A DNA stretch of 64,000 nucleotides from Bremerella sp. TYQ1. Its GTDB lineage: Bacteria; Planctomycetota; Planctomycetia; Pirellulales; Pirellulaceae. Numbering within the stretch: the stretch's first letter is position 1; each line of letters opens with the position of its first letter. The translations under genes were made by a program, and so were the position numbers. Under the pieces are notes generated by a model, which was not told the origin of the DNA, made no database searches, and saw only the letters and a list, made by a program, of their open reading frames with translations. The stretch lies in the NCBI RefSeq assembly GCF_020150455.1, contig NZ_CP083740.1, forward strand, positions 558,001-622,000. Reading direction: 5' to 3'. Below, in pieces: positions 43,294 through 62,629 of this stretch.

Positions 43294-43329
43294 GAATTGT
43301 CGCGTCAGGCGACCGTTACGCGACAATTC
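43294..43329. repeat. Perfect 11-bp inverted repeat at the 5' end of the serine recombinase gene
   Basis: Arms GAATTGTCGCG (43294-43304) and CGCGACAATTC (43319-43329) are perfect reverse complements separated by 14 bp. The dyad lies about 80 bp before the preferred recombinase ATG. It could be a recombinase binding or attachment half-site, or an operator. No second copy was noticed by eye elsewhere in the window. Confidence 0.6.
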
Positions 43330-43410
43330 GTTTCTAGACTTCGGCTACGGCTTGCGAAGCCGCGGCCTGGTGGTCGCCTGCTAGCATTCTGTGGCAAGCC
43401 GTGCATCTCC

Positions 43411-45936
43411 ATGATTCACGGGAAGCTAGACATGCAGCCCAATTTGGTGGCGGCCAAGCTTGAGAAACTGCTCCATGATTTCAGCGAAAAAGCCGTTGCA
43501 ACTACCGTCAAGGGGAAGACGGCTCCGGCAAAGCGGAAGAAAGTGAAACGCACGAAGGAGGAGATTCGTCGTCAACAGGATCAGTTCCATGCAAAGACGG
43601 TCAAAGAGATCGACTCCCTGCTGGAGGACTATTACACGAGAATCTCGCAAGAAGGTGCCGATAGTATCGGCGCAGCCTACGCTCGCTTCTCGACGAGATT
43701 TCAAGATTCAATCGCAGATCAACTCCGATCGATCCTCCAGGATGCCGTACGGTTGGACATCTATATTCCGCGCGAGTACGTTTTCTTCGACCTTGCAGTT
43801 CGCGGCTTTCAAGATCGGCGACCTGGCCTCATGGCTCTCAGGAAGATGTTAGAAGCGGGAAACATCCAAACGCTCATGGTCTTCACCACGTCCCGACTCT
43901 ACCGACGAGCCTACAAGTGCTTGCAGTTTGTTGAAGAGGATTTGGTCGAGCAAGGCATTCGTGGAATCTTCGTCAAATCGCATATCGACACCGCCGACGG
44001 GGATAACTGGCGAACGACCTTACAGGCGTTGGCCAACATTGATGAGGCGCAAGTCCGCGTATACGGGGCGCATATTAATGCATCACACGAAGGGCTGTTC
44101 GACAGGCAGATGGTCCATACGACCCTTTCCCTAGGCTACACCGGTGAAATCGTTGAAGGTGAGTTGACGCGGCGGCAGCGTCCTCGGCGAAGGATCGTCA
44201 TTGATCCTGAATCCGCTCAATGGATAGTTCGGATCTTTTACTGGTATGTGGTCGATCGGATCAGTATTGCGGAGATTGCAAGGAAGCTCAACGCAGACGA
44301 GAACGCCCCTGCCCCGGAGAATTCAATTACCGGCCTTTGGACGCATGCTTTGGTGCGAAAGCACCTATCCAATCCCCTATATCGCGGCTGGTGGGCTTAT
44401 GGGGCGACGGAGACCAAGTGGAAGAGCAAGAAGGATTATGCTGCTCAAATTCCCCGGCAAGCCCCATTGAGGGAAGCCCATTTCGACGATCTACAGATCA
44501 TTCCGGATGAGTGCTGGTATGCCGCTCAAACGCTGCTTGCTGCCGAAACAAGCAAGTCGGGGCGAAAACCTACGACAGGAGACCGTGATAAAGGACCTCG
44601 CCTTTTGCAAGGTATGTTTGTCTGTCCAGAGCACGGTCGCCGACTTGCAGCCGGGGGGGCAAATGGTCGCATGTTGCTGTGTCCGTGCTGCCGCTACATC
44701 GAATCAAATAGTCGACCGATCTTTACTCACTTGAATCGGAAACTGGCTCTGCGATTGACGTGCGATCACCTTATCGATTGGATCCGACCGTCGGAAGAAC
44801 TTATTGATTCGGTAGTCGAGGAATGCGAACGTCGTTCCGCAGAATTGCAAAAAGAGGACCCCTATATTCTGCAGGCTCTGAAAAAACGGGCGGCCGAGCT
44901 CAAGGCCACCATCGACTTCAATCGTCGCAACCCTGGGGTTTCTGAGGATGAACAGCGTCAGACCATGCTGATCCTCAAGGATCTTCGCCGACAACAAAAT
45001 GACGTACTCGTCCGTCTCAGTTCCATCGAGGCCGCACAGCAGTCACCACCTCCGACGCCGAGCCGTGAACAGGTTGCCGAGTTCCTGGACGCAACAAGAG
45101 AATTGATACAACAGGGGCTAACATCCAAGGACGAATCCTTGCTTCGTAAGATGCGCCTATCGATGGAAGGCATAATTCTGGGTAAAGTTGAAGTGCATCA
45201 GATGGGGGAACGTAGTAAAGCGAAGGGTTGGCTGCAGGGCCGATTGCGGATTGATGTCGCTGGTTTTGTTGTCAAGGAATTGACCGGAGTTTGTTGTGCG
45301 GACTCGAACACCGTTCAGGAAGTGACGATCGACTTCAAAAAGGTTGACCCGCTCGACGAGCAATCGGAAACGGCGAAACGACTCTGGGATGATGGACTTC
45401 TTCTTAATGCGATCGCCCAGCAAATGGGCTGCTCTCCAGCGTACGTTACCAAGCTAATCCAACATTGGCACGATAAACGCGGCTTGCCGCGTCCCAATAA
45501 TAAGCGACGCCGAAAACAGTTAGAATCTAAGCAAATTAAAGTCCCCTCGTACAAGGAAATCGCCAACCAGGTGCATGAACTCATGATAGCAGGGCAATCC
45601 AACTTGGAAATTGGCAGGGCTTTAGGAGTTTCGGACGCCACCGTTGCCAAAGCGATTAAATGGTGGCATGAAAAGCGAGGCTTGCCGGTTCCGACCGCCG
45701 CGGATCGACGACAATTGAAGCTCTTGCGAGCAAAAAAGATGCTCGCCGAAGGTATGTTGGTTACAGATGTCGCGGCAAAACTCGAATACACGCCTCGCGG
45801 CCTAAAAATGGCACTCGCCAAGTTCGCTGCCGATAATGGCGAGGCAGCACCGGATTTCCGTTCGCGCCGTGGGAATGCCAAAGCCGGATCGGCGGCGAAT
45901 GGCAAAGAACTAGGCTCTGATAAGTTGGCCGTCTGA
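43411..45936 (+). CDS. Large serine recombinase (site-specific) with tandem HTH tail
   Basis: This is a serine recombinase of about 841 residues. The resolvase domain shows YARFS (nucleophile Ser about residue 94), RFQDSIADQLRSI and FTTSRLYRR. A Recombinase domain follows (IAEIARKLNADENAP), then a zinc ribbon (CPEH near 405 and CPCC near 425) and a coiled coil. The tail has three helix-turn-helix-like units (about 655-800): LNAIAQQMGCSPAYVTKLI, NLEIGRALGVSDATVAKAI and VTDVAAKLEYTPRGLKMAL. The frame is open from a TTG at 43297, but that start lies inside the inverted repeat; ATG 43411 or 43432 is more likely. It probably mobilises or fixes the adjacent defence island. Confidence 0.88.
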   Translation: MIHGKLDMQPNLVAAKLEKLLHDFSEKAVATTVKGKTAPAKRKKVKRTKEEIRRQQDQFHAKTVKEIDSLLEDYYTRISQEGADSIGAAYARFSTRFQDSIADQLRSILQDAVRLDIYIPREYVFFDLAVRGFQDRRPGLMALRKMLEAGNIQTLMVFTTSRLYRRAYKCLQFVEEDLVEQGIRGIFVKSHIDTADGDNWRTTLQALANIDEAQVRVYGAHINASHEGLFDRQMVHTTLSLGYTGEIVEGELTRRQRPRRRIVIDPESAQWIVRIFYWYVVDRISIAEIARKLNADENAPAPENSITGLWTHALVRKHLSNPLYRGWWAYGATETKWKSKKDYAAQIPRQAPLREAHFDDLQIIPDECWYAAQTLLAAETSKSGRKPTTGDRDKGPRLLQGMFVCPEHGRRLAAGGANGRMLLCPCCRYIESNSRPIFTHLNRKLALRLTCDHLIDWIRPSEELIDSVVEECERRSAELQKEDPYILQALKKRAAELKATIDFNRRNPGVSEDEQRQTMLILKDLRRQQNDVLVRLSSIEAAQQSPPPTPSREQVAEFLDATRELIQQGLTSKDESLLRKMRLSMEGIILGKVEVHQMGERSKAKGWLQGRLRIDVAGFVVKELTGVCCADSNTVQEVTIDFKKVDPLDEQSETAKRLWDDGLLLNAIAQQMGCSPAYVTKLIQHWHDKRGLPRPNNKRRRKQLESKQIKVPSYKEIANQVHELMIAGQSNLEIGRALGVSDATVAKAIKWWHEKRGLPVPTAADRRQLKLLRAKKMLAEGMLVTDVAAKLEYTPRGLKMALAKFAADNGEAAPDFRSRRGNAKAGSAANGKELGSDKLAV

Positions 45937-46127
45937 AAATAGATGTTCATGCCGGGCCGCGAACCAGCATGTCGCCGATCCGTTCGCAGCCCTAGTCAGG
46001 GTGTGCCTGCTTGAGCATCAGAATCGTCCGATTGGTCAGCCCAGGTAGTCTGCTTCCTTTCTTCGAGCCTCTAGGCTAGTTGATCAGACCGCCCGTTCCG
46101 CTGCAAGGTATCCAGCAGCAGAAGCTT

Positions 46128-46490
46128 CTACTGTGGCAAGATGGGCGTCTGAGGGCGATCAACACCGGGAGCGAAGGTGGCACGTCGCTTGGTCCTGACA
46201 ACCGGAAGTGGAGCCTCTTTGCCCCACGACAGTGAATCTGGCAACTCGGAGATCCGTTCTTTAGGGAGAGGACGAGGCCAAGGAGACTGATACTTTTCAT
46301 CCGACACAGGTGGAAACGCCTCTTGCATTTGCTCGGCAGCCGGAGTCTTCAACGTCGGCCCTGCGGGTCCGACGATTGGAACTGAAACGAATACTTTTTG
46401 TAGGTGGCTTCTTAGCTGCGCTCGCTGAGAGGATCTGTCGAATTGGCCACGCGCCAGATAGGCTCGTCGGATGGATGTTACAGGACACAT
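46128..46490 (-). CDS. Small proline-rich protein, homologous to the one at 62402-62629
   Basis: This is a 120-codon frame of unknown function, the start uncertain. Its middle, PAGPTLKTPAAEQMQEAF, matches PAGPPLEPPAAEHLPEAF of the small gene at 62402-62629. The DNA of the shared part (46312-46370, minus strand) agrees at about 48 of 59 positions with 62492-62550. Conservation at both DNA and protein level in the same frame supports a real, or recently real, gene. No domain recognised. The first half (MCPVTSIRRAYLARG) has no counterpart and may not be translated. Confidence 0.45.
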   Translation of the reverse strand: MCPVTSIRRAYLARGQFDRSSQRAQLRSHLQKVFVSVPIVGPAGPTLKTPAAEQMQEAFPPVSDEKYQSPWPRPLPKERISELPDSLSWGKEAPLPVVRTKRRATFAPGVDRPQTPILPQ

Positions 46491-46792
46491 CTACGGTCCA
46501 TTTCCGAACTTCGCGAGGGTTTTAATTACCAATTGAGGTTTGGATCGACCTCCCTGTTGAGGCTTTGCCCAATGAGATAAATGGGAGATCGAGGTTTTCG
46601 TTTACGAGGCAAAAATCGTCTCCAATCACGACTCAAAGGGTTGTTCAGGGGCGATTCCTAAATCTCTGTACCGGAATTGGAACGCGTAACCTCAGAAATG
46701 GAAATGAGTTGCGGAATTCACTTTGAAAGTGGAATCCAAGATGGTTGTGTCCACGACTAAGTTTATTTCAACTTTGCCTTATTGAAAAATGA
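46491..46792. other. Intergenic region, nothing recognised
   Basis: About 300 bp between the small proline-rich gene and a tyrosine recombinase relic. No coding frame, repeat or promoter that I can support. Confidence 0.3.
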
Positions 46793-46924
46793 TCTTTCGT
46801 TTTCGATTATTGGACAAAAAAGCCGATTAGCGTTGAGATGCTCTCGGAGCTGATGGGCAATTCGGTCGAGATTTGCCGGGAGCATTATCTCGCATGGGAT
46901 CGGAGATATTCGGAGCAGTTCTAG
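46793..46924 (+). pseudogene. Relic of a tyrosine recombinase C-terminus
   Basis: The frame reads SVEMLSELMGNSVEICREHY then LAWDRRYSEQF and a TAG, followed by A-A-Y-stop. This is the standard end of XerD-like integrases (LGHSSVKVTEKHYAPWVKARQ type), keeping the Tyr nucleophile context (EHY) but with the conserved His changed to Asn. Upstream the frame closes at 46790. Only about 43 codons remain, so it is a relic. It lies about 220 bp before the PHP-SMC ATPase gene. Confidence 0.6.
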
Positions 46925-47141
46925 GCAGCGTATTAGTTGGCCACACTTAAGAGAAGGCTGCCCTTTGGCATTACGATGCGATAAGCATTTTCTCGCTAGG
47001 CGCAACGGTCAGTTGAGTTCAATTCCGTTATGAAATAGTCTATCTCCAATGCTGTTCGGATGTACTTCGAACAGTGCAATGCAAACGCCGATAGTAATTT
47101 CGTTTGTTGCACGAGACTCGTACCTTTTGAATGGCAGCAAC

Positions 47142-50114: not shown

Positions 50115-50236
50115 ACCCACTTTATCCGTCGACTAGTACTTCATCTTGTCGAGCGGAAATAAGAAAAGCCTACGTTTCAATTTATAGAACGCAGACTGGT
50201 TGATCGCACCGCTGTTGCCCGAAAGGTGCCGGATCT

Positions 50237-50427: not shown

Positions 50428-50808
50428 TCAGTCACCAAGTTTTCGAGTGATTCTATGAAATTCCACGGGGGTGGTCGGTTCAAAGCTCATTGCATATCCA
50501 TAACAAACGCTCGTCCATTGATCATTATCATAGAACGCTAATACGATCGATTTGACGGTTTGGTAGTGAATTTTTAGTGCATCTTTCAATTCGTGTTCAA
50601 ACTCGTTCCATTTGACGGATTCACCCTCTTCAAGTTTGTTGTCATATTTTTCAAAAATGTCGTGGGCAAGATCGATCTCTCCTTCATCCCAGTCAAGTGA
50701 CAATATGAGCGATTCTACCGGGTGCTTTCGAGTATCGATGGTTTCCCCAATAGTGCGGACTTGAAACTTTAGCTTTTCAAGCTCCCTGGTGATCTCTTCA
50801 TTGTTCAT
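50428..50808 (-). CDS. Hypothetical protein, cytosolic partner of the membrane protein encoded upstream
   Basis: This is a 126-residue acidic, soluble protein with no family I recognise. It starts with a charged helix (NNEEITRELEKLKFQVRTIG), followed by an acidic region (LDWDEGEIDLAHDIFEKYDN) and a beta-rich C-terminus (SIVLAFYDNDQWTSVCYGY). Its start overlaps the stop of the upstream membrane-anchored gene by four bases, so the two are translationally coupled. Position between two defence modules suggests a two-gene defence or toxin-antitoxin-like unit, but this is guilt by association only. Confidence 0.7.
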   Translation of the reverse strand: MNNEEITRELEKLKFQVRTIGETIDTRKHPVESLILSLDWDEGEIDLAHDIFEKYDNKLEEGESVKWNEFEHELKDALKIHYQTVKSIVLAFYDNDQWTSVCYGYAMSFEPTTPVEFHRITRKLGD

Positions 50809-51257
50809 GCCTTACCCTCCAATTGGTAAATAATTGCGTTCAACTCTGACACCGCATCTTGCATCTTTGCCTGAAGCTCGTGAACGTCTTCGGCAGCGGG
50901 GTCCCCAGCATTCCACGAAACTTCGTAAGAGTTTAGTTTGGTTTGTCCACCTGTCAGAAGTGATCGGAGACTTGCATCAGGTCCACCTGCATCGATGGTT
51001 CCAAGTGCATGATCAAAATGTTCGCGAATCTTCTGAATAAGCTCCTGGGGGCGCACACCACGAGCCTTGTTCTTATTGGAAGTAGGAAGACGCCTAATCT
51101 CATCTTGGGCTCGCTTCAGCCGTTCAATTACTGTTGTGAGACCGAACTTTCGGATGTCTGACTTGAGCTGGTTTCGATAGGTCCTAGCTTGAGTTGCTTG
51201 CCAAATCGTGACGGCAGTTCCAGCCAAAGTCACAACGGTGCCAACTACAGTCACCAT
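50805..51257 (-). CDS. Hypothetical single-pass membrane protein
   Basis: This protein is about 150 residues with one N-terminal membrane helix (MVTVVGTVVTLAGTAVTIW) and a cytoplasmic helical domain (IERLKRAQDEIRRLP, ELIQKIREHFDHALGTI, VHELQAKMQDAVSELNAIIY). I start at 51257, which puts the helix at the N-terminus; an in-frame ATG at 51308 adds 17 polar residues and lacks a ribosome site. It overlaps the following cytosolic gene by four bases. No family recognised. A signal-anchored coiled protein plus a small soluble partner inside a defence island is reminiscent of membrane effectors, without proof. Confidence 0.68.
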   Translation of the reverse strand: MVTVVGTVVTLAGTAVTIWQATQARTYRNQLKSDIRKFGLTTVIERLKRAQDEIRRLPTSNKNKARGVRPQELIQKIREHFDHALGTIDAGGPDASLRSLLTGGQTKLNSYEVSWNAGDPAAEDVHELQAKMQDAVSELNAIIYQLEGKA

Positions 51258-51569
51258 GCTGTCTAGTTCCAAGAATTTTCCCCTCTTCTCGCCGTTTTGC
51301 AATGGCATTCAACGCGAGACCGAAGTCCGTGCAAGCCTGCAACCAACCTAAAAACGGTCCTTAGCTTTGCGAAATGTATCGAAACGTGTTCCATCTGACA
51401 ACAACCGGCGGCGATCTCCGGCCTTCTCCATCGGAATCGAGCCGAGCGGATCAGCAACGCCAATCACACCGCCAGCCAGCCTATTACGATCCCCGCTGAA
51501 ACCGGTTCAACCAGTTCCCACTCGATTATCGAGGGCGATGACGCAACAGTTTGCTGTGTAATCGAGTTT

Positions 51570-52721
51570 TCAACTCGTGCGAGTCAGCCAGTCCGTAATT
51601 CGCTGTTTTACTTTGTTTAATGGCAGAAACTCCTGCTCGAGTCTTCCTTGCCTTTCGCCAAGCAAACGAACGTATAGCTCCTGCTCTACGTCCGAAAGAC
51701 CGTCAGGAACTCTGGTGCCAGCCACGACGGGTTCGCACACTGCTGATTGTTTAAACTCATCAAAGTCTTGCATCGTCATCAGGAGGGGTTCTAGATGTGG
51801 AATCGCTGTCCGTGCCTTCGCCAAGAACTGTAGTCCCCAACTATCGATGTCACCCCAATAGGCAACCTTTTTGGTGACCAGCCACCGCCCCTCTGTCCAG
51901 CTCAAGTCGAATCCAGCGCCCAATACTGCAATAGTATCCTTTGCTTCAGGAAGGTGATGTTGACAAGATTCATTTTCAATGACGAGCAGGCAACTTCCGG
52001 GAAGACCAACTTCCTTCAACTCAGAAGCACGCACACGCATCTTTCTGAACGGAAGAAGCGAGCCGTCCAGATCCACGACTAACAACCAACGATCACCTTC
52101 TCGAAATGCTCCGAGGAAGCTCTCTAATCCAATACGGCTAACCTCACCGTCAAATCGGACATCCAGCAACGCGGTGACTAGCCTAGAATTGCGTTCGAAG
52201 AATTTGGTGTCAATACCTGCCAGTGAGATCGTTCGCAACGGCTGGCCTTGAGCGCAGCCTGGTGAGATCGCCATCGCGAGGCTCGATGCTTGTAAGACTT
52301 CGTCAAGCGGTTTACCCAACCAGAGCGATCTTCTACGGACAAAAAGCGAATGGAATTCAGTAGCAGTTTGCTTAACGAGAGTCGCCATCGATTGGAACTC
52401 TTGACGCACCGAGTATTCGCCAGCCGCTTCGATCCACTCACTCGGTTTTGAGAACTGCCATGTGACTGGGATATCGACTGGTGTCGACGCTGCGCGATAC
52501 TGAGTCGGCTCCCACACGACCTGACCAATTCGTACTTGCCGCCACGCTTCGATGTGCTGTTTAACGTCATCAAGAGCACCACTGAGTTTTCGTGGCGAAG
52601 GTCGTCCAATAGAGAAACGCAATGGCCATGCAGACGCTCCGCCCAGAAGCCGCGACTCCCGTAAGGTTGGGTTCTCCCATTGTCGCCGTGCTACAACCCT
52701 CAGTTCCCCTGGAGATTTCAT
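51570..52721 (-). CDS. jetD: Wadjet subunit JetD (DUF3322-DUF2220), Toprim-type nuclease
   Basis: This 383-residue protein has the JetD layout. An N-terminal DUF3322 (MKSPGELRVVARRQWENP, arm domain) is followed by a C-terminal DUF2220 Toprim-like nuclease with LLVIENESC (Glu near 249) and KVAYWGDIDSWGLQFL (DxD near 290). In Wadjet, JetD cleaves small closed circular DNA detected by the JetABC SMC motor, which removes plasmids. The start overlaps the jetC stop by four bases, and the nuclease motifs appear intact, so the system should be active. About 310 bp without a supported gene follow its stop before the membrane protein gene begins. Confidence 0.93.
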   Translation of the reverse strand: MKSPGELRVVARRQWENPTLRESRLLGGASAWPLRFSIGRPSPRKLSGALDDVKQHIEAWRQVRIGQVVWEPTQYRAASTPVDIPVTWQFSKPSEWIEAAGEYSVRQEFQSMATLVKQTATEFHSLFVRRRSLWLGKPLDEVLQASSLAMAISPGCAQGQPLRTISLAGIDTKFFERNSRLVTALLDVRFDGEVSRIGLESFLGAFREGDRWLLVVDLDGSLLPFRKMRVRASELKEVGLPGSCLLVIENESCQHHLPEAKDTIAVLGAGFDLSWTEGRWLVTKKVAYWGDIDSWGLQFLAKARTAIPHLEPLLMTMQDFDEFKQSAVCEPVVAGTRVPDGLSDVEQELYVRLLGERQGRLEQEFLPLNKVKQRITDWLTRTS

Positions 52722-55700
52722 TGTGTTCGTGCCAGCTGCTCAAGTTTCTCCCACGAGATGGAGGTCAGGCTTGCATCTTTATTTGGACGCTGCACGCAAA
52801 TAACCTTCCGCGTATGCTGCTTTAACAAACCAATTTCTTTGTTCGGAGTTACGAAGATTGGATGCAGGCTGAAAATACGGAGCGCCTCGATAATGCGACT
52901 GGCTGCTGACGGTGAACTCTTGGAAAACGCTTCATCCAGAATCACAGTGCCGTAAAGCGGGCGCGACGCGCCCGCCGGACACAACGCATAGCTCAGTGAC
53001 GCTGTGAGAATATGACTTGCCATGAGCTCCTTCTCGCCTCCACTTCCGCTTTGTGAACCAGTTCGCGGCGGTGAACGATCTCCGCTTTTGCGGTCGACCT
53101 CAACAACGAAAAATTGCAGGCGGAATCGCGGATCAAGCAGCGCCTTAGATCCTTGGAGTCGGCGATTCTCTCCCGCTTCTCGAAGGATTGCTACCATGCC
53201 CTGTAGCGCTCGAAAATGACTCTCTCCATTGTCGTCCTTTAGTGCTGCACTCCGCACCTTCTGCATGGCGATATTAAGAGCCCGCAGTCGCTCGTCCTTG
53301 ATCCTCTGCGGCTGTAGTTGAAGATAACGCCCCTCGCGAAAGTCGACCTTTACCAACGTATGATTCAGCTCGCTTATTCGCTGTTCAATTGCATCTACCT
53401 CTTCATCGATGCTCGCCAGAAGTTGCGTTACTCCTTGGTCCGAGGAACGATTCAAGTACTCCAAGAATCGCGCGCGCTTTTCAGGCAAAGCTTCCTCATT
53501 CAAGACCCTAAGGCGTTCAAGGTATTGCGGGACGTCATCGACTTCCGTGCCGACATCCGCTAAGCTACCGCTATCGATATGCTTTGCTATCCCCATACGA
53601 CGCACGAGCTGCTTCTCAATTTCTTTTTCTCGGTCGACATGCTTTAGCAGCTTTTCTTCGACAATCTTTGCCCACTTACGTTCTTCGTCGTATAAGTCCT
53701 CAACCAAAACATTAGGGGACAGTCTTATCTTTCGTTCCGCTAGTTCTAGGTCGACCTCCTCAGCAGCTGAACCAATCCGAGCTCGAGCCTTCACCTGTTC
53801 CCGCTTTGCATGTTCGTATTGCGATTCATCCCGATTGATCCTCAGCCTGAGTTCATTAATTGACTTTTGAATCGAAGCAAGTTGCTTGTTCTCTTTGTCG
53901 AACTCTACTTTTGCCAAGATAACGTCGGAATCTGGTGCCCTTAGTAGTGCCAGTCGATCAACGCTTTTCGCTAAGGCAGCCGCTGCGCTGGGCAAATCTA
54001 CAGAAGTGAAGTCAAGTTGAAGGAGCACATCGATCATTCTCAAAAGCTCATCTGCAGCTTTGAGTTTTTGCTTCTTCCCTTCATAATCCTGCTTGGCTGA
54101 CGCCACTTCCAATGCGGCAGATTGAAGTTGGCCTGCGAGGGACACAAGCTGATCTTTATTGTCGAAGCCTGTCATCCAGTCTTGGCTCAAGCTACGTTGA
54201 TCCTGTTTCTCGAATTTCCCACGGCGACCAGACATCATACCCTCCTTGGTCAGGCCATGTTCGACATTCTGCAAATCCTTCGCCGAACTGACGCAGTGCA
54301 AGTCACGTTCAGAGAGAAGCTGTCTTGCCGCTTCCGAAAGAGGATGAGTTTTAAAATTGAGTTTCCGAACAAAGCCATCTTCAAAGATATTGAGACGACC
54401 ACTGCGAGCGGGAGCATCGGCATCCAAAAGCCGTACGTGCAACCTATTGTCGCGGTGATTCACCCACTCCAATGCCTGTCTCATATGTGATCGAGGAACA
54501 AGGATGCGCAATCTCTCTGAACCGATTGCTCGCTCGATAGCACCGCGCCAAATGGTTTCAGTAGAGCTAACTTCAACAAGTTCGGCGAGGTAAGGCAATT
54601 CATTATCAGCTAGTGACAGTTGGTTTGATAGCTCCGTTCTAAATTCCTGGTACTTAGGTGGAATGTTGGAGCCAGGCCTTTGTCTCACTTTGACCAGAGT
54701 TTGTTCAATTTCTCTTGCGATGGATTCTTTTTGGCGCAAAAACGAATCTGCCTTTAATACGAGATCATAGAGTTCCTCTTTCGCAACTGACTCGCATTCA
54801 AAACGCTCTTTAAGGGCTTGTTGATTTGAATTAAATGTCTCAAGAGTCAAGTCGTCTGCGAGTTGAAGTCGTCCAATCAGCTGGCGATACTGGTCAGCAC
54901 TTTGTCGGCGTGTATCGCGAACTTGCGTTTGAATGGCAATCGTGTTTTCTAACTCACCGATAACATTCCCACCTAGCAACAAATACTTCTCGCGAAGAGT
55001 ATCAACAAAAAGGCCGTGTTCTACTTCTGTCTTGCAGAGTTTTTCAAGCTCGTTCTTGGATGACTGAAGAAGTGTCCCGAGTTGATCGACTTTTTCACCC
55101 CATTGGCGGTCAGCATAGCATGCGAACCAAACTGGAAGGGTGCGTTTGAGAAGTCGACAATCGTTGGTTTTGGTGAGGGCTTGTTTTAGACTGTTGTATT
55201 CGTTGAATACCGGCACGAGTGACTCTTGTTGTTGTTTTGCTAATTCCAGCTCCGCGTGGATTGCTGCAAGGTTGTCAAACTCGGCAGCAACCTCGATAGC
55301 GCGATCAAAAGCAGATTTGTCATCGAGAACCAACTCTCGAAAAATCTCATCAATGCTATTGAGCTGTTTCAATCCAGCCGCACGGTTGAGAAGCGTGAAT
55401 GCGTTCTCGCCAACATCGAAGAATTTTCGGGCGCGTTCCAAGTAGGATCGCTTGCTCTCAAAGAATCGTAGACCAGCCGTCTCGCGGCCTATTTTTAGAA
55501 GATGGCGGACTCCGTCGTCGTTAAGCATACGAAGCCACTTCTCAAAGGTGTGATCTTGCGCGAGAGAGAACACCCACCTTCGCTTCAGATCCTCAGCAGA
55601 GTTGCCACTGCCTTCCGTCCAAAACAGCGCCGCCAACCGAAGTACTTGTTCGCCACTGATGTACGTCGCGCAAATACCGCTCATCGTTTTTCCAGGACGC

Positions 55701-56077
55701 GCGACTTCTTGCCTCCCCTCAGCTCCGTCGCCGCCAAGCACACCACGCACATACTCGATTAACGTCCGGTCACTCTCATGCCCTCCAGTGGATGCTAGGT
55801 TGTAGCGTGGCGATGCAACCAATAGCGTCATGAGAGCGTCGACGAGAGTCGTTTTTCCGCTGCCGGTTGGACCAATGATGGCAGTTCCGGCAGGGTCAAA
55901 TTGCGCCCTATGAATACCCCGAAACGGTCCCCAATTGTAGACTTCCAGCTGACTCAACAGGTATGAAGACTCTGGTCCCGTATTAGTTACATGGTCAAAA
56001 TCGCTTTCGTCCGCGAAGAGATTCTGTTGTTCGTTGCGAGACGTTGCAGGTTGAGAATTAGGACGCTCTAGCATCAT
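52718..56077 (-). CDS. jetC: Wadjet subunit JetC (MukB-like SMC ATPase)
   Basis: This is a 1119-residue SMC-family ATPase, the motor of Wadjet. Walker A GPTGSGKT sits at about 69-76. Two long coiled-coil arms enclose a hinge region (about 440-640), and near the C-terminus come the signature SGSGGEKELMAS and Walker B YGTVILDEAFSKSS. The N-terminal QLEVYNWGPFRGIH is typical of MukB/JetC-type heads. It extrudes DNA loops with JetA and JetB and presents small circles to JetD. It overlaps jetB and jetD by four bases each, keeping subunit synthesis coupled. Length is normal for the family. Confidence 0.95.
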   Translation of the reverse strand: MMLERPNSQPATSRNEQQNLFADESDFDHVTNTGPESSYLLSQLEVYNWGPFRGIHRAQFDPAGTAIIGPTGSGKTTLVDALMTLLVASPRYNLASTGGHESDRTLIEYVRGVLGGDGAEGRQEVARPGKTMSGICATYISGEQVLRLAALFWTEGSGNSAEDLKRRWVFSLAQDHTFEKWLRMLNDDGVRHLLKIGRETAGLRFFESKRSYLERARKFFDVGENAFTLLNRAAGLKQLNSIDEIFRELVLDDKSAFDRAIEVAAEFDNLAAIHAELELAKQQQESLVPVFNEYNSLKQALTKTNDCRLLKRTLPVWFACYADRQWGEKVDQLGTLLQSSKNELEKLCKTEVEHGLFVDTLREKYLLLGGNVIGELENTIAIQTQVRDTRRQSADQYRQLIGRLQLADDLTLETFNSNQQALKERFECESVAKEELYDLVLKADSFLRQKESIAREIEQTLVKVRQRPGSNIPPKYQEFRTELSNQLSLADNELPYLAELVEVSSTETIWRGAIERAIGSERLRILVPRSHMRQALEWVNHRDNRLHVRLLDADAPARSGRLNIFEDGFVRKLNFKTHPLSEAARQLLSERDLHCVSSAKDLQNVEHGLTKEGMMSGRRGKFEKQDQRSLSQDWMTGFDNKDQLVSLAGQLQSAALEVASAKQDYEGKKQKLKAADELLRMIDVLLQLDFTSVDLPSAAAALAKSVDRLALLRAPDSDVILAKVEFDKENKQLASIQKSINELRLRINRDESQYEHAKREQVKARARIGSAAEEVDLELAERKIRLSPNVLVEDLYDEERKWAKIVEEKLLKHVDREKEIEKQLVRRMGIAKHIDSGSLADVGTEVDDVPQYLERLRVLNEEALPEKRARFLEYLNRSSDQGVTQLLASIDEEVDAIEQRISELNHTLVKVDFREGRYLQLQPQRIKDERLRALNIAMQKVRSAALKDDNGESHFRALQGMVAILREAGENRRLQGSKALLDPRFRLQFFVVEVDRKSGDRSPPRTGSQSGSGGEKELMASHILTASLSYALCPAGASRPLYGTVILDEAFSKSSPSAASRIIEALRIFSLHPIFVTPNKEIGLLKQHTRKVICVQRPNKDASLTSISWEKLEQLARTQ

Positions 56078-56832
56078 GCACTCTCCACACTGCCATCGGG
56101 TATATCAGCGTCACTCGTTGGCTGCTTTTTATCTTTCAAAATACTGAGCAATTGTTTCAGCGATTCCGGGCTTGCCAAGTGAGCGATGAGCGGCCGGATC
56201 GTGACTTCATGTTTCTTGTCAACCTCCGAAACGATCCCGTGAGCCTTGAGTTGATCGAGCAACTGGAGGAGCCGATTCTCGTCCCTGGAGTCACTTCCCG
56301 ACTCGCCGAAATAGGCCAAGAAGTTCGGGAGCAATTCATCGACCGCAATCTTTGCTGGCGACTGCCCGACACCAGACTCCTGTTCGTGCATCACAAATGC
56401 TTGCCGCAAGACGGCTACCAGCAAGGACTGCTCCAGAGTAAGTCGCTGTTTTCTTACGAGTGGATGACTCCAGCTGTCTTCATCAGATTCGACCTCAGAC
56501 GGCCTAGTCAAGGACGATTTGGGGGCAATTACCAAGAAAGCTACGCCGCGATGGGAGTCAATCCGCACTGTAAGATCGAGTGGCTCCAATGCTTTGCTCA
56601 TTGACTGTTGATGGATAATAATGCGGCGAAATAGTTCTTGCCGATTCGTCTCTTCAACATATCCATGCTTGAGTAACTCCTGCACGACCGCCTTAATATC
56701 AGGAGATGTTTGTCCAACATCCTCAACACTGGCTGAATGTTGCGCAGGCGTATCGTCGGTGACAAGTGCGTGTTCGACAGTTGGATCACCTGGGCCCTCT
56801 TCCGATGCCATTTGGTCAAAAATGTTCGTCAC
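56074..56832 (-). CDS. jetB: Wadjet subunit JetB (DUF4194, MukE/KiteA-like)
   Basis: This is a 252-residue DUF4194 protein, the winged-helix kite subunit that dimerises and binds the JetA kleisin. Visible motifs are AVVQELLKHGYVEETNRQEL, LTVRIDSHRGVAFLVI, LTLEQSLLVAVLRQAFVMHE and NRLLQLLDQLKAHGIV followed by a short beta segment. An acidic disordered N-terminus (about 1-45) precedes the fold. It sits between jetA and jetC with four-base overlaps on both sides, the expected gene order. Confidence 0.9.
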   Translation of the reverse strand: MTNIFDQMASEEGPGDPTVEHALVTDDTPAQHSASVEDVGQTSPDIKAVVQELLKHGYVEETNRQELFRRIIIHQQSMSKALEPLDLTVRIDSHRGVAFLVIAPKSSLTRPSEVESDEDSWSHPLVRKQRLTLEQSLLVAVLRQAFVMHEQESGVGQSPAKIAVDELLPNFLAYFGESGSDSRDENRLLQLLDQLKAHGIVSEVDKKHEVTIRPLIAHLASPESLKQLLSILKDKKQPTSDADIPDGSVESA

Positions 56833-58319
56833 TCGAGACTCTCCACCTTTAGATTCTTCACTGCCTCGTAATTGACCTTCACAGTAGGAACCTGGAACCG
56901 AGTCCCTTCATTTTTGTCGTCAACTAAATCGATGGTTTCCGTCGCATCTTCGGGTGGTATCCCGGCTTGCCTTGCCATCGCAAGCCAAAACGCCAGAGTT
57001 TCGAGATCATGTGTAGGTGGAAGGGACAGGGCTAAATCACCAATCGTTGGTGAATTTGGGAGCTGCTGTAGATACTCAAGTGTTTGGCGGAATAGCTCCG
57101 TTCGATTTAACGCATGATATGCCTTCCAAAACTCGTCATCCATCGCGTTTGGATCAGCTTCGTTAACTTCTAAGTCCAGCGTATCTGTAGAGTCGTCGCC
57201 GACTTGTTTCGGAAGAAGACGTTCAATCACTGGTAAGTTTGCGATTGATATAGCAAGTGGTGGTAGCGGACTAGCCGATCGTCGCATTTTTTGCGATTGC
57301 CAATCTAGCTCCAACGCTACCTGGAATATTTCCTGCAAGAGCGCCCCCACACGCATCTGCTCGTCCGCGAGGCCAGACTTGAGAAAACCGCGCACGTCCC
57401 TTTCGCTTCGAGCTCGCGCCTGAATAACGCGTTCGGATTCCTGTACCAGTCGTGAAACCAATTGGCGAAGTTCAGCTTTCTGTTTCCTGCCAAGTGCACG
57501 GTCCGTGTTGTCATTTTCAAGGATTGCCCGCAGTCGAGATTTCATCTCTTGAAGCTCGGATGATTTGACCAGTTGGGCGTAAAAACTCTCGAAAACTTGC
57601 CCTTCTACGGTTTGGACCAACTGCGCATGCCCATCAAGTAGTTCATCGACAATCTCGCCGCGGTTTTGCTTCTCGCTAATGATTCTTTGGCGGAGAATTC
57701 GATCTGCATCACGATAGGAATCTTCAACTCGTCGAAAATCAGCTGGTAGGCTGATTGCTAGTTGATACACTTCTCGGATTCCTTCCTCCGCCTTCGATCC
57801 ATCAAGGACTTCAAAATTTCCAGCTTGAACAGCTTTCAATTCTTGATTCAACAATTCAATCCGAACTTGAAGAGACTTCTCCCTATCGCTTTGGCTCCTG
57901 CTCAGTTGGGACTCGAGAATTTCGATCGCACGCTGGACTGTGGCCAACCGCGAAGCCGTTGATGTCATCGTGTGATCCTCGAGTGATTCAAGAAACATTA
58001 AGGATCGCTGAAAGGCATCGGTCGCCAGAATCTTGCCACCGCGTTCTACAATCAGGCCACGTTTCAACCACTGCCTTAGCTCTCTTCTGGCCTCTAATGG
58101 GTGGTCGCTGTCGAGATCAAACTCGGAGTCGTTTGAATATTCTGCAAAGGCGGCAGCCAATCGTTCCACTGCCTCATCGAAATCTACACCGGCTGGATTC
58201 GACTCGATTAGATTCTTGAGGCTGGCGAGAATAAGTGGACCTTTTGGCGAAGCAAGGAGCAGCCATGCAGAATGGTTTCGCCGGAGCGATACATACTTCT
58301 GGACGATCTCTCTGGACAT
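56829..58319 (-). CDS. jetA: Wadjet subunit JetA (DUF3375, kleisin)
   Basis: This is a 496-residue DUF3375 protein, the kleisin that bridges the JetC heads. The N-terminus (YVSLRRNHSAWLLLASPKGPL) and ELRQWLKRGLIVERGGKILATD are typical of the family, followed by a coiled helical middle (about 120-330) and a C-terminal winged-helix-like part (LEYLQQLPNSPTIGDLALSL). It is the first gene of jetABCD; the order and domain set define a type I Wadjet system. A candidate promoter lies about 105 bp upstream. Confidence 0.94.
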   Translation of the reverse strand: MSREIVQKYVSLRRNHSAWLLLASPKGPLILASLKNLIESNPAGVDFDEAVERLAAAFAEYSNDSEFDLDSDHPLEARRELRQWLKRGLIVERGGKILATDAFQRSLMFLESLEDHTMTSTASRLATVQRAIEILESQLSRSQSDREKSLQVRIELLNQELKAVQAGNFEVLDGSKAEEGIREVYQLAISLPADFRRVEDSYRDADRILRQRIISEKQNRGEIVDELLDGHAQLVQTVEGQVFESFYAQLVKSSELQEMKSRLRAILENDNTDRALGRKQKAELRQLVSRLVQESERVIQARARSERDVRGFLKSGLADEQMRVGALLQEIFQVALELDWQSQKMRRSASPLPPLAISIANLPVIERLLPKQVGDDSTDTLDLEVNEADPNAMDDEFWKAYHALNRTELFRQTLEYLQQLPNSPTIGDLALSLPPTHDLETLAFWLAMARQAGIPPEDATETIDLVDDKNEGTRFQVPTVKVNYEAVKNLKVESLE

Positions 58320-58423
58320 ATGTCTCCGCTGCCCCAGCTATGCAAATTGGGTCAAAAAATTGCATCTTTCGGTTGCTTCGCGAACGGTCCTCAAAAAACG
58401 GTCACTAGCCACCAAGTCGGTAG

Positions 58424-58452
58424 ATTGTAGCATCCCCGACATGGGGTGTCTC
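58424..58452 (-). promoter_or_regulatory. Candidate promoter of jetABCD
   Basis: On the minus strand GAGACA (58447-58452, four of six to consensus) and TACAAT (58424-58429) are 17 bp apart, with an extended -10 TGC just before TACAAT. The spacer contains CACCCC-ATGTC-GGGGATG, a partly symmetric element that could bind a regulator. Sequence-only prediction. Confidence 0.35.
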
Positions 58453-59066
58453 CTCTCTCCTCCACAAGAGGGAAATTCGCAGCCGGAACGAGATAAGCTT
58501 TTGACACCCAGTCACACTGCGGCGCGGTATGGTTTTAGACGCCACCAAGCCCGGAGTGGCAGACCAAATTGTGCTTTGTAAGATCCACAACTAGAAGGTC
58601 GACACGGTCTCGAAACGGCGGCAGGTTGTCGCGACCTGAATGGCCGCGTCGTTTATTGTGCGAGTCGGCCCAAATTTTCAGTATGCAATTCAAATGTTGC
58701 TCGTTGGCAATACCGAAGCCGATTGGCCTGGATGGACATTATGGGTGTATTCAGCCAGACCAACCTAACATTCGTCGAATGTGAACCTATGGCAACACCG
58801 ATCTCGACGTTTGAACACGTCAAAAAGATGGCATGAACGCGGAGCGGACGCCAACGCATGTAAAATAGGGTATCAATCGCGGCGGCCCGATTGCGGAAGA
58901 CGTTACAGCCATACCTTGCGTGGACATGACGAATCGTACTTTTCCGCTCTCTGGACGGCGAATTAAAGGCCCTCCTTAACACGCTGGACAGGCGCCGCGG
59001 CAGTCGTTGTGACCGAATCCATCGTGCCAGTCTTCAAGCAAACACTGCCGCATTGCCAAAATGCCC
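58453..59066. other. Intergenic region, nothing recognised
   Basis: About 610 bp between the jetA promoter area and a hicA relic. Frames at 58569-58784 and 58653-58982 are rich in Arg/Cys and lack ribosome sites or motifs. It may contain decayed DNA that I could not identify. Confidence 0.35.
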
Positions 59067-59336
59067 TCAGTTTAGGTCGATGTTCTCGGCTCGCTCAAAC
59101 CGTCGCATGGATTTAACGGCTCACGACTCAGTGTCTTTTTGAAGGTGCGGCCGGTAAAGCATGACCCGCATGCCGTTCAGGGCAGCCCGCACTCGCGATC
59201 CGGAGCCTCCGCTGATCTCGGCACCGACTGCCTTCAGCGTCACCTGGATATCCGCCAGGCAATGCTGTATCTGACCGGTGCCTCGAAAATCGCTACCAAT
59301 GTGATCGTATGTGCTTTGGTCCCATGCTCTCCTCAT
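59067..59336 (-). pseudogene. hicA: hicA-family toxin gene, broken by a TGA
   Basis: The frame from 59336 reads ADIQVTLKAVGAEISGGSGS then RVRAALNGMRVMLYRPHLQ and KDTES, the pattern of HicA toxins (DIESLLRALGAEI, GSRV, FHRPHP). A TGA at 59121-59123 stands where the family has the Gly of DKGAV, and beyond it the same frame continues AVKSMRRFERAENIDLN to a stop, matching the normal HicA end. A single GGA-to-TGA change could explain the break. HicA is an mRNA-cleaving double-stranded-RNA-binding-fold toxin; no hicB was found beside it. It lies 24 bp after the OLD-family gene stop on the same strand. Confidence 0.62.
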
Positions 59337-59360
59337 TAGTATCTTCGGATAATGCCGCCG

Positions 59361-61898
59361 TCACGTTTTGTCAGATGGCGGGATTCCTGGTGAAATCGTT
59401 GCTTCGGTGGAAATCGGTTGCCCTTTTCCATCCGTGATTATTTGGGCGGGAGCACTGGATTCGACAACTGCAGCCTGCTTTGGCTCTGTTGCGGCCGACA
59501 AGTCAACCGTTTCCTGCTGAACCGCGTTTAGGGCAGAATACCGCACACAGCCAAGCGCCTGAGAAAACTCCGCGAACCGTTCGACCGCACCCGGTTTCGG
59601 TTCGTTGAGATCGAAACTGCGTCTTAGCTTTTGAAGCTCAAGCCGAACCGTGTCCGCTTCGCTGCTGTCGTCCAAAGCGGATTCAACATCCTCAAGCAGT
59701 AGAATGGCTTCCTCGCGCTTGGCAGTCGTTGGATGGTCACTGCGAAACGATTTGATAACGCGGTCGACTTTGCGAGAGATTCGCTCTTGTGATGTTCCAC
59801 GTTCGGCCTGTCTCTGCATTTCGGAGAGCCGCCGAATCAGGACAGCAAAATTCGCCTGGAAGGTTTTGGCATCCTCTTCAGGAATGATCGGAGTCGGGGC
59901 AATGTGGTTCTGGTGAATCAATTCAACGACTTCTCGGGCCAACCCCATCTTGTCGATGTGAAATTCCGGCCCAACTTCAGACTGCACGACGTGATTGATC
60001 GCGTCGTAGTGCTGTCGGTCTGCGGTCCATGCCGAAACAATTGCATCCTGGGTGACCTTTGCGGCATCTGTTGCTGATACACCACAGACCTTTTTGAGGA
60101 ATCGCTGCACCGCAATGGCACAAAGACCGGGAGGGATTAGGTCTTCCGACTCGATTAGGGTTTTGCCTTCCGGCAGTTTCACCTCACTTGCCAAGTCAGC
60201 AAGCATGAGCACGGACTCGGGCTTTATGATTTGCTTGCCTTTTGCGCCGCCCCTTTTTAGGTCTTTTTGCGCCTGCTTTCCCGATTTGTCGCTATCGAGC
60301 AAAACAATGACGGACGGCTGTTCGATATCTCGCCCGCGAGCCAGATAAACCAGATACGGAATGTGGGATGAAGAGCCTGCCGGAACAATCGTGATTCGAT
60401 TCAGGTCGAAGGTATTGATCTTAGAAACGTCCAGTGCCCGCAAATAAGTTGAACACCCTGCGAGCAATACCTGATCGGCTAATCCCTCAACCATAAGATT
60501 GCAGTTGCCGATGAAGGCAGTCTCTCCGACGAACGACCCGAATGATGAACGGAGCGGTTCGTAATGATTCTTCGACGCATCATTGACAACCCTCGTACCC
60601 TCATCGTCCGTGCCTTTCTCCAGTACGCGTATACGCTCACCATGATTGCGGTCGATCAGGAATGGGGAGTGCGTAACGTAAACGACCTGCACTGGCCTGC
60701 ATCCATCCTCTTCAGGATGTGCAAATGCGTCGAAGATTCTTAGAAGGTCCTGCTGGCCCTGGCTTGAGAGATACGCATCAGGTTCATCCATGAGCAACAT
60801 CTCCCAGCCATCGCTAGGATGATCGTGTGCCAAATACTGAACGTAGTAACTGAGAAAGTATTTGAGGCCGTTGCTGCGCTCGCCGAAGGAATACTCCGTT
60901 TGAGTACGGTCGCTGATTGTGAAGACTAGGTCATCGTCGCGGGCAGAGACCGTGAGGCGGAAATCCCTGTCCTGCACCCACCATTTCGGAAAATTCAATT
61001 CAGCGGCAAGGCGTTGATTAATTTGCTGGAGCAAGCCATTGGCAAGGCCCTCGTCTTCTTCAGCTAATGCTTTCGAAAGATCGGCTATTGCCGCTCTGTC
61101 GATCTTGGCTACCTTGAACAACAGGTCCCGTGCAAGTTCAAGAGATCGGGTCGCTTTTCCATCTGCCGCTGCCTCCTCATCATCAGGCGAAAACTTTGCC
61201 ATAGCCTTGGAAATGGCTGAAGCTCCGGACTTGACAGCTTCTTCGGATGAAAAATGCGAAAGAATGCCATCGACTATTCCAACAAGGGAATTTCGCTCGG
61301 TTCGGCGCCAAGCGGAACGCGTCTCACCTCTCAGCCATGAAAGAGGCACACTGCTTGGGAGCGCAACGCTAGAGTCAATTTCAAAGACTTTCGGGAGCAA
61401 TGCGCTTTTGAGGAATGCTGCCGTGTCCTTGACATCGCATTGAACGTATTGATCACGCTGCTTGAGCCAGATATCAATTGAGGTTCTGTCACGTCGAATA
61501 AGAATAAATTCATCTAAAGAGCTGTCGCTTTTTACTTCAATCAGTGTTCGAAGCTCGTCCTGCTGTTCTCGGCTGAGGTCCGCGAAATGAAGGCCGAAGT
61601 CCGGCCATCGCATATTTCCCTCTTCGACTGTAAAGAACTGGGAGTATCGACAGAAATCCCTGCGAGAGATGTTTTCGCCGGAAAGTCCTTTCTTAATTGC
61701 ACCGAGAGAATGACTCTTGCCAGACTCGTTTGCGCCGACAATGGTCGTGATGTCTCTTGCCAGTGGAATACGGACGAACGGAAACCACGCTTCGCCAACG
61801 TTCTCCCATGGCAACGCCTTGGCCCCGGGATGGTTCTTGCGAAGGTAGTCGAAGTTGAACGATTTGAAGAAGCGAACAAGAACTGCTTTGAGATACAT
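59361..61898 (-). CDS. OLD-family ATP-dependent nuclease (AAA ATPase with Toprim domain)
   Basis: This protein is about 845 residues. The start at 61898 has GGGGAG upstream and the usual YLKAVLVRFFKSF opening. The ABC-type ATPase has Walker A GANESGKS (about 54-61), LLMDEPDAYLSS as Walker B (near 366) and VTHSPFLI as H-loop. A Toprim domain follows with MVEGLADQ (Glu near 468) and LLDSDKSG (DxD near 531), giving an overcoming-lysogenization-defect type nuclease. About 200 residues of charged C-terminal sequence follow. No UvrD-like helicase is adjacent, so it is not Gabija; it resembles stand-alone class 1 OLD proteins with phage-defence roles. It closes the right part of the island. Confidence 0.85.
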   Translation of the reverse strand: MYLKAVLVRFFKSFNFDYLRKNHPGAKALPWENVGEAWFPFVRIPLARDITTIVGANESGKSHSLGAIKKGLSGENISRRDFCRYSQFFTVEEGNMRWPDFGLHFADLSREQQDELRTLIEVKSDSSLDEFILIRRDRTSIDIWLKQRDQYVQCDVKDTAAFLKSALLPKVFEIDSSVALPSSVPLSWLRGETRSAWRRTERNSLVGIVDGILSHFSSEEAVKSGASAISKAMAKFSPDDEEAAADGKATRSLELARDLLFKVAKIDRAAIADLSKALAEEDEGLANGLLQQINQRLAAELNFPKWWVQDRDFRLTVSARDDDLVFTISDRTQTEYSFGERSNGLKYFLSYYVQYLAHDHPSDGWEMLLMDEPDAYLSSQGQQDLLRIFDAFAHPEEDGCRPVQVVYVTHSPFLIDRNHGERIRVLEKGTDDEGTRVVNDASKNHYEPLRSSFGSFVGETAFIGNCNLMVEGLADQVLLAGCSTYLRALDVSKINTFDLNRITIVPAGSSSHIPYLVYLARGRDIEQPSVIVLLDSDKSGKQAQKDLKRGGAKGKQIIKPESVLMLADLASEVKLPEGKTLIESEDLIPPGLCAIAVQRFLKKVCGVSATDAAKVTQDAIVSAWTADRQHYDAINHVVQSEVGPEFHIDKMGLAREVVELIHQNHIAPTPIIPEEDAKTFQANFAVLIRRLSEMQRQAERGTSQERISRKVDRVIKSFRSDHPTTAKREEAILLLEDVESALDDSSEADTVRLELQKLRRSFDLNEPKPGAVERFAEFSQALGCVRYSALNAVQQETVDLSAATEPKQAAVVESSAPAQIITDGKGQPISTEATISPGIPPSDKT

Positions 61899-61920
61899 GA
61901 TATTACGTCTCCCCTGACTC

Positions 61921-62118
61921 TTATGATGACTCACTCAGCTGCTTTGGAGGCAATTGTTTGATAACGCGTCTCTCAACGGGCACCTGCGAATGCGGAAGCC
62001 CTGAAAGATGACCGTGCAATCGTTCGAGATTCTCACTTGTAAAGAAAATTACCTGCTGTGAGGAGGAAAGTGAGGCGGACGCTCTGCGCAGAAGCTCGAC
62101 GAAGTTTACATCGCGCAT
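61921..62118 (-). pseudogene. Small frame before the OLD gene, possibly an ATPase tail relic
   Basis: This is a 65-codon frame that extends upstream without an ATG to a stop near 62150. It reads ELLRRASASLSSSQQVIFFT and SENLERLHGHL, which resembles the end of an SMC/AAA ATPase (QVIxFT after Walker B). It lacks a clear ribosome site. Either a truncated neighbour or a short gene coupled to the OLD gene, whose start lies 22 bp downstream. I favour a relic. Confidence 0.35.
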
Positions 62119-62379
62119 AATCTGCTGACGTGGCTCTGAAAAAGATTAAGAATGTTATCGAGTCGACTATCGCTTTCAAGTGAACGCTAGTATCGCACAG
62201 GGGCTCCCTTTGGCAAGCTTATACCTCTATTGGTTCTTGATGGAGTTGTCAAGCAAGGCGATACACAGCAAGGGTTTGCGAACCATCAAAATTGGTCAGA
62301 GCGTTTGTGGCGCTTGATCGAGTGTGCCCCTCACCGACATCTTTGCTCAGTTTAGAGCTGAAAGTAGTAGGGGAATGAC

Positions 62380-62397
62380 CTCTCCTAATTAGGAGAG
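62380..62397 (+). promoter_or_regulatory. Perfect 18-bp palindrome containing the ribosome site of the small gene
   Basis: CTCTCCTAATTAGGAGAG is its own reverse complement; its right half holds the AGGAG (62391-62395) placed six bases before the ATG at 62402. As RNA the two halves could pair and hide the ribosome site, or as DNA it could be an operator. Confidence 0.55.
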
Positions 62398-62401
62398 AGT
62401 C

Positions 62402-62629
62402 ATGAACTCTGAAGATAGCTTCAATCCTCAAGAAGGTCTACAGAACCAAGCGGGTAACGAGTTGTTTGAGCGTAGCGAAAACGACTCATTACCCGCGGGG
62501 CCGCCGTTGGAGCCCCCTGCTGCCGAGCATCTGCCAGAGGCGTTTTCGCCTTCTCGTTTGGATCGGCCTGCTCTTATCGCCGTAACCAAACGCCACGGTT
62601 ACCAGCCGCGTGCACCTACAGACTCGTGA
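62402..62629 (+). CDS. Small proline-rich protein of unknown function
   Basis: This 75-residue protein starts at an ATG with a strong, well-spaced AGGAG. It is polar at the N-terminus (MNSEDSFNPQEGLQNQ) with a proline-rich middle (PAGPPLEPPAAEHLPEAF) and a basic end (VTKRHGYQPRAP). The middle is shared with the minus-strand frame at 46128-46490, at about 81 percent DNA identity over 59 bp. No domain recognised. Low complexity suggests a disordered protein. Its own palindromic leader hints at tight translational or transcriptional control. Confidence 0.62.
   Translation: MNSEDSFNPQEGLQNQAGNELFERSENDSLPAGPPLEPPAAEHLPEAFSPSRLDRPALIAVTKRHGYQPRAPTDS

Follow-up and report, generated by a model that had tools for sequence, protein, structure and literature searches.

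A defence-carrying integrative element of Bremerella sp. TYQ1 that appears to insert at sulfatase active-site codons and to rebuild the front end of its target gene

The window analysed here, a stretch of 64,000 nucleotides of Bremerella sp. TYQ1 (bases 558001–622000 of contig C1 in the single-contig 6.66-Mb genome, G000), is very probably the inside of an integrative element of ~103 kb, which a pair of tyrosine recombinases probably recombines into the codons for the F-I-D-D active-site strand of a sulfatase gene, rebuilding the front end of that gene in the process. A preliminary description had placed a defence island at 43.3–62.6 kb of the window, set between metabolic genes and headed by a serine recombinase; its view of the region as acquired, mosaic and partly decayed holds, but the unit has about five times the proposed length, and the metabolic genes on both sides lie inside the same insertion and are cargo too.

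The left junction of the insertion maps to ~521.51 kb and the right junction to 624.85 kb of the contig (about −36490 and 66850 in window coordinates), both outside the window. In five of eight congeners (G001, G002, G007, G006 and G008) the site is empty, with the outer genes adjoining a single intact sulfatase gene in the order alpha-2-macroglobulin-like gene, intact sulfatase, SDR (in G001, G002 and G007), FAD oxidoreductase and MarR, and with small genes between them in some; the source genome has the same order, interrupted by 103 kb. The window thus lies wholly inside the insertion, its metabolic genes being cargo, and the conserved synteny across all close relatives that would have spoken against acquisition is not found. 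At this location, site 1, the sulfatase of G005 is occupied by a different, decayed element, the marker gene of G003 has other neighbours and G004 gave no match to that marker. The names SDR, FAD oxidoreductase, MarR and alpha-2-macroglobulin, like TypA, glycosyltransferase and NrfA, come from reading the sequences, with no family search. The protein encoded at 39143–41056, tried as a left-flank marker, occurs in one of the nine genomes of the genus, its own, because it is cargo.

The attachment core TTCATCGACGA is present at the left and right attachment sites (attL and attR) of the element holding the window (own1) and at the unoccupied site (attB) of four of the five empty congeners, G008 having TTCATCGATGA instead; between target genes the core is degenerate. 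Two further elements, own2 and own3, reside in the same genome. The 12.6-kb left core of own1 is 94.7% identical to that of own2 and 91.8% to that of the G001 element, yet the sulfatase part beyond the left junction differs from both, and the right-end segment common to the compared loci runs into a truncated sulfatase 5′ end. A second target, site 2, is occupied by own2 (~62 kb) and by elements of G001 (57 kb) and G005 (56 kb), which lie in another sulfatase between TypA-like and glycosyltransferase genes; its empty form is seen in G004, where an intact sulfatase directly follows the same glycosyltransferase gene. An empty site at the exact place (sites 1 and 2), an integrase beside the junction and a common att core, as expected of a site-specific integrative element, are thus all found.

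The insertion point within the host gene coincides with the codons of the F-I-D-D strand, and the sulfatase at attL is a chimera: its first ~57 residues (MHGLIKPT...RVPNI(V/I)LIF) come from the element, and everything from the DD onward from the host. The element-derived leader is similar in five same-genus copies of this type and the host-derived part varies by site; upstream DNA, signal peptide and first strand are all supplied by the element at the left junction, so that the sulfatase open reading frame (ORF) is whole again. At attR the old host 5′ end is truncated (...FIDDK*, the asterisk denoting a stop) and followed by the element sequence AAG-TAG. Twelve right junctions were read out of 13 right-end matches: in 11 of them the neighbour is a sulfatase 5′ end that stops at DDK*, ten of the 12 have the inner motif GTGTAGCAAARTGTAGTTAAT without any change, and AAGTAGA is present in all 12, which were in part located by that very sequence and in part aligned without using it. 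When the host parts of three split genes (two sites) were joined by script, the ORFs stayed open over all 425 codons tested. GACGAT was considered as part of the element at attR and rejected, as GAYGAY varies there and the sequence clearly belongs to the element only from AAGTAG onward.

Across the loci compared, leaders resemble one another to the degree that their integrases do (Mantel rho 0.48, p=0.0005 over 27 loci, the least p possible with 2000 shuffles), whereas the part after the DD shows no such relation (rho 0.04, p=0.29, 27 loci); integrases that are 95–97% identical can be paired with post-DD parts that are only 34–43% identical, the mean over all pairs being 39%. Leader substitutions are mostly synonymous (dN/dS 0.14–0.70 in ten pairs from the five same-genus copies), and the conservation of the leader motif LLHRI(A/T)TL extends to its DNA (TTRCTACAC...RCTACACT). 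Among 53 distinct leaders, drawn from 58 loci (46 of 47 public sulfatase loci and 12 of 37 loci of the order; L244, which lacks a leader, was left out), the second Leu is encoded by CTA in 51, the Thr by ACA in all 53 and the residue preceding it by GCT or ACT in 50; two loci escaped the motif script, L233 and own1, the latter with LLHIFAIL in its leader. The leader DNA is a direct repeat of CTACAC, a hexamer that is also present in the right-end module (on the reverse strand of GTGTAGCAAARTGTAGTTAAT), and these repeats are probably arm-type sites of the integrase.

Two tandem tyrosine recombinase genes stand beside attL, 34–36 kb outside the window; both match PF00589 over the cut-off, and 0.3 kb separates the junction from the start of the first. 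Nine aligned integrases share invariant Arg, Lys, Arg-His and His-Tyr residues, which we take to be the expected catalytic set of tyrosine recombinases, and the position of the pair suggests that it performs the integration. After it the left core continues with a 451-amino-acid (aa) protein, serine recombinase B (683 aa), a protein scoring just below the DUF1257 cut-off, a 217-aa protein, an AAA ATPase and a 313-aa protein. The 451-, 217- and 313-aa proteins (L101 9799–11154, 15017–15670 and 17254–18195) match nothing in Pfam or NCBIfam; a role in recombination or maintenance is conceivable for them.

The serine recombinase of the window, A, which the preliminary description correctly assigned to its family and whose place in the coordinates given there implied the edge of the island, is an interior module: it lies ~80 kb from one end of the element and 21–24 kb from the other, and tyrosine recombinases adjoin the junction in its stead. 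A Pfam PF00884 scan revealed no sulfatase piece beside module A, the missing half being found at the true left end of the element. Copies of the module with 91–94% nucleotide (nt) identity occur in own2, G001 and G003, where its 12-bp inverted repeat has one mismatch (own2) or is perfect (G001 and G003); homology stops at the end of the recombinase gene (45906–45936) and resumes only in a relic 0.5 kb further on. The left edge of this homology was rejected as an attachment site, since own2 and G003 share ~120 bp more upstream. Module A occupies differing inner positions in four elements, so that it may itself be a mobile unit nested within them.

Sulfatase front-end replacement also appears to be practised by many related planctomycete elements. 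Of 396 genomes of the order, 29 (including the source genome) contain matches (E<=1e-40) to the 418-aa tyrosine recombinase beside attL. The upstream side was examined at 37 loci, five of them from the elements described above; the remaining matches are second integrases of pairs and shorter pieces. By profile search, a divergent sulfatase stands beside the integrase in all 33 loci with integrase identity >=47% (including a 122-aa remnant in G045a, a gene cut by the contig end in G110 and one of 252 aa in G060b) and in none of the four with 34–42%; all 29 scanned sulfatases of these 33 match Pfam Sulfatase. Based on the 93 sulfatase-domain matches of the source genome, a divergent sulfatase would be met by chance within 400 bp at ~0.3% of places. 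A public collection of 84,980 species genomes contains 58 loci for relatives of the integrase; the titles name planctomycete groups, except for five that say only 'bacterium' and two labelled Ca. Kuenenia. Seven had <400 bp upstream; of the 51 testable loci, 47 have a divergent sulfatase within 700 bp, in every case within ~350 bp. The sulfatases concerned are diverse; the order set and the public set overlap (for example G406 and L196) and are not independent.

The chimeras could in principle stem from homologous recombination between paralogous sulfatases, whose 5′ ends are similar and whose domain is so abundant in this genome; this is scarcely credible, considering that the break falls at the same codons every time, that integrase genes start within ~0.35 kb of the sulfatase start, that the displaced 5′ end is found at the other end of the element beside fixed element sequence, and that leader similarity tracks the integrase and not the sulfatase. 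Nor is it at all likely that serine recombinase A (ORF 43297–45936) is the edge integrase of a smaller defence island of ~20 kb, as its close copies with different neighbours in three other elements and the perfect inverted repeat at its head might suggest: the empty-site comparison sets the junctions at 521.51 and 624.85 kb, homology among the copies ends with the recombinase gene, which means that the cargo is not tied to A, and two G005 elements and own3 have no close copy of A yet possess sulfatase junctions. Tyrosine recombinases are common in phages, and the element might be a prophage or an integrated plasmid; this origin is quite improbable, as viral contigs yielded no integrase relative, matches in five phage and three plasmid records are weak (all <31% identity, <=63% coverage) and no phage structural family occurs among the ORFs scanned, most element ORFs being unscanned. 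A composite structure, in which an original element of ~35–60 kb received one or more later insertions, such as the metabolic block at 534–601 kb, whose junctions have since decayed, is a possibility that we doubt but take seriously. Accretion does occur: in G005:C5 and in G002:C73 the right junction leads into an element-type leader, the G005 element at site 1 is visibly composite and decayed, and own3 (G000:C1 403–469 kb) has two successive right-end junctions, at 446.59 and 469.17 kb, which looks like an element inserted in the junction of another. Set against this, the 521–635 kb interval of this genome yielded a single right-end module (E<=0.01), and the flanks fit one empty site.

Several observations weigh against the reading of own1 as one element integrated by its tyrosine pair. 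The other copies measure ~40–62 kb against ~103 kb for own1, in which the 67 kb between the core and module A could hold a second, worn insertion. Besides the tyrosine pair, serine recombinases are encoded both in the core (B) and in the interior (A), three kinds of recombinase in all, so that the pair is only the probable catalyst; neither an excised circle nor an empty sister strain nor any transfer came to light. The crossover is placed only to within a block of ~11 bp. In a 75-nt comparison the old leader is nearer to the empty-site leaders than the element leader is in four of five cases for own1, two of three for own2 and three of three for G001, a result that is supportive but not clean, the preference not appearing in every comparison. 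The Mantel test does not remove shared ancestry. Among the right junctions, one of the 11 (G003:C6, 154 kb) adjoins a damaged sulfatase 5′ end, and the twelfth (G005:C5, ~204.6 kb) a gene unlike a sulfatase (...LILDVDK*), possibly reflecting a hit on another target or a local rearrangement. Finally, four of the 51 testable public loci (L205, L214, L234 and L246) lack the sulfatase. The right-end module at this non-sulfatase gene of G005:C5 (L105 ~8612–8664) is the second one there, separated by 0.75 kb from the other, and may mark an off-target insertion.

Taken together, the junctions, the empty site, the chimeras with their recurrence and the cargo are firm, and integration of own1 by its tyrosine pair would proceed as follows. 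The tandem recombinases at the left end would recombine the element with F-I-D-D-coding DNA of a host sulfatase, a kind of target gene of which the source genome offers many. The left end would bring upstream DNA, a signal peptide and the first strand in frame, making the C-terminal part of the sulfatase again a full ORF at attL, and the old 5′ end would stay behind at attR, stopped by the AAG-TAG of the element. The leader codons (LLHRIATL) would double as the probable arm-type repeats; the chimera would presumably be expressed and of use to its host, and the elements would pass between cells. Cargo turns over between the conserved left core of ~12.6 kb and a right-end module of ~150 bp, with known or candidate defence systems sitting towards the right end.

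The contents of the window are listed in Table 1. Nine of ten larger ORFs of its left 42 kb have a Pfam match at E<=0.001, mostly metabolic and in one case below the cut-off, and PADLOC had no match to any of the ten. Serine recombinase A probably starts at the ATG at 43411, as read by eye. The relic downstream of it is split in own2 into two parts ~1 kb apart, with an insert that contains transposase-like ORFs by eye.

Table 1. Features of the window, with coordinates counted from its first base
Feature	Position	Strand	Evidence
Very probable interior of ~103-kb integrative element	1–64000		Empty site in five congeners; mapped junctions
Mostly metabolic cargo (Gfo/Idh oxidoreductase, sulfatase, GntP permease, PSCyt/PSD proteins, malate synthase G, FecR/GDSL protein, others)	1–42734		
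Serine recombinase module A	43236–45936	+	ORF 43297–45936; Pfam Resolvase 1.1e-12, Recombinase 2.8e-13
Perfect 12-bp inverted repeat GAATTGTCGCGT-N12-ACGCGACAATTC at head of module A	43294–43329		Chance mean 0.00
Relic common to other elements (73–86% nt identity)	46542–46931		
TrlF-family AAA-like ATPase, 1021 aa	47049–50114	+	NCBIfam TrlF_fam_ATP 6.4e-193, residues 43–1012
Orphan protein of small pair, 126 aa	50428–50808	-	Without family match
Orphan protein, 167 aa, N-terminal hydrophobic stretch (by eye)	50805–51308	-	Without family match
jetD, Wadjet type I	51570–52721	-	PADLOC JetD 2.6e-158; Pfam DUF3322, JetD_C
jetC, Wadjet type I SMC-like ATPase	52718–56077	-	PADLOC JetC E=0; Pfam AAA_29, SbcC_Walker_B
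jetB, Wadjet type I	56074–56832	-	PADLOC JetB 1.6e-85; Pfam DUF4194
jetA, Wadjet type I	56829–58319	-	PADLOC JetA 1.5e-199; Pfam DUF3375
Possible hicA relic	~59103–59240	-	Pfam HicA_toxin E=0.025, sub-threshold
OLD/GajA-like AAA protein, 857 aa, intact ORF	59361–61934	-	PADLOC GajA 2.1e-12, Old 3.7e-12; Pfam AAA_21 2.1e-11
3′ part of 647-aa gene with C-terminal acyl-CoA dehydrogenase	62670–63998	-	Continues beyond window

The defence assignments of the preliminary description largely stood. The TrlF-type ATPase scores 644 bits against an NCBIfam cut-off of 350, which places it in the TrlF family by a near-full-length match, the comparison being one of profiles only. The type I Wadjet (jetABCD, 58319–51570, minus strand) is complete and its genes adjacent, each of the four proteins fitting its best PADLOC type I model nearly end to end; the gene order is that of known systems, from which only the placement inside an element differs. 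The small pair at 50428–51308 was rightly considered of no known family, with nothing in Pfam, PADLOC or NCBIfam at E<=0.001, and a search made with the 167-aa member found it in one of 396 genomes of the order, its own, and in none of the 395 others, the 126-aa member not having been searched. The two small genes overlap and adjoin both TrlF and Wadjet, which makes them a candidate orphan defence pair. Two claims were right in part: what had been called a broken OLD nuclease is indeed OLD/GajA-like, by weak matches, but its ORF is uninterrupted; and the broken hicA corresponds to a possible relic with a match of only 15.1 bits against a Pfam cut-off of 27, in a stretch translated with X at stops. 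The OLD/GajA-like gene does not qualify as Gabija, with its weak GajA match and no adjacent UvrD-like GajB, the large ORFs that flank it being jetA and the acyl-CoA dehydrogenase gene. The latter is 95.5% identical in nucleotides to a gene near the right end of the G001 element; this 647-aa gene, whose N-terminal part has no Pfam match, is common to two elements that otherwise share little cargo. A 61-bp stretch recurs in inverted orientation (82% identity) at 46308–46368 and 62491–62551, on either side of the defence genes. Over the window, Rfam gave nothing at gathering scores and ARAGORN no tRNA.

Defence cargo of other kinds is found in related elements. Between module A and its right end own2 has a Gabija pair (GajA 2.8e-196, GajB 1.3e-168); the G001 element encodes a PDC-S06 candidate and an LmuA-like protein, the G005:C5 element a CRISPR-Cas I-G set that adjoins the right junction (L105 9289–18990), and own3 a PDC-S28 candidate, whereas of four ORFs in the second part of own3 a single one matched, as an RtcR-like regulator. 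G003 and the second G005 element have Cas56g pieces close to their right junctions, and the latter also has a DpdE/ZorD-like helicase. These ORFs were hand-picked, being near a right junction or promising, in batches of nine and eight, with matches for 9/9 and 5/8, one of the latter being the RtcR-like regulator, which is no clear defence gene; as the ten metabolic ORFs of the window (0/10) are the sole PADLOC control, the presence of known or candidate defence genes in the elements read implies no enrichment over background. Relaxase and type IV secretion genes did not appear among the ORFs scanned, in which no search was aimed at them and most ORFs were unscanned. In own2 (G000:C1 ~1914–1938 kb), a long row of ~180-aa genes extends between serine recombinases A and B, and several of them resemble SMI1/KNR4-type proteins by eye.

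SXT/R391 integrative and conjugative elements have a tyrosine integrase, insert near the 5′ end of prfC, supply a new 5′ end and have variable cargo. The present element resembles them in that a gene is kept whole by a new 5′ end from a tyrosine-integrase element with variable cargo; it differs in that prfC is a single gene, whereas here the target is a sulfatase gene from a many-membered enzyme family, hit at its active-site codons, with signal peptide and catalytic strand swapped. Tn554 and RIT elements have tandem tyrosine recombinase genes, are much smaller and are not known to rebuild their target gene; they share with the present family the row of two or more tyrosine recombinase genes at one end, whereas this family measures ~40–103 kb and rebuilds its target. 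SCC elements, mobilised by Ccr serine recombinases and bearing interchangeable cargo, are comparable in having large serine recombinases and exchangeable cargo, although CcrA/CcrB profile matches are weak and far below the cut-off and the serine recombinases here lie away from the junctions.

In summary, the defence genes themselves are of known kind; what is striking is that insertion recurs at the active-site codons of diverse sulfatases and replaces their front end. On balance we lean towards an element family, so far in planctomycetes only, for which the active-site codons of a large enzyme family serve as landing pads, and which exchanges the upstream and secretory front end of its target and has its repeats translated within a signal peptide; with about ninety sulfatases in this genome, safe sites would then not be exhausted, and with every new landing another sulfatase may come under the control of the element as it imports defence. 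Testable predictions are that arm sites lie within signal-peptide codons, that attP can be read from attL plus attR, and that sulfatase expression follows the element; as a search handle, the integrase pair beside a divergent sulfatase would lead to defence cargo across the phylum. For the biology of these bacteria, the family offers an example of a mobile element that aims at the catalytic codons of a paralogous enzyme family and rebuilds its target with its own front end, a concrete vehicle for the gain and loss of defence systems in planctomycetes, and a reason why annotated sulfatase 5′ ends may be of mobile origin.

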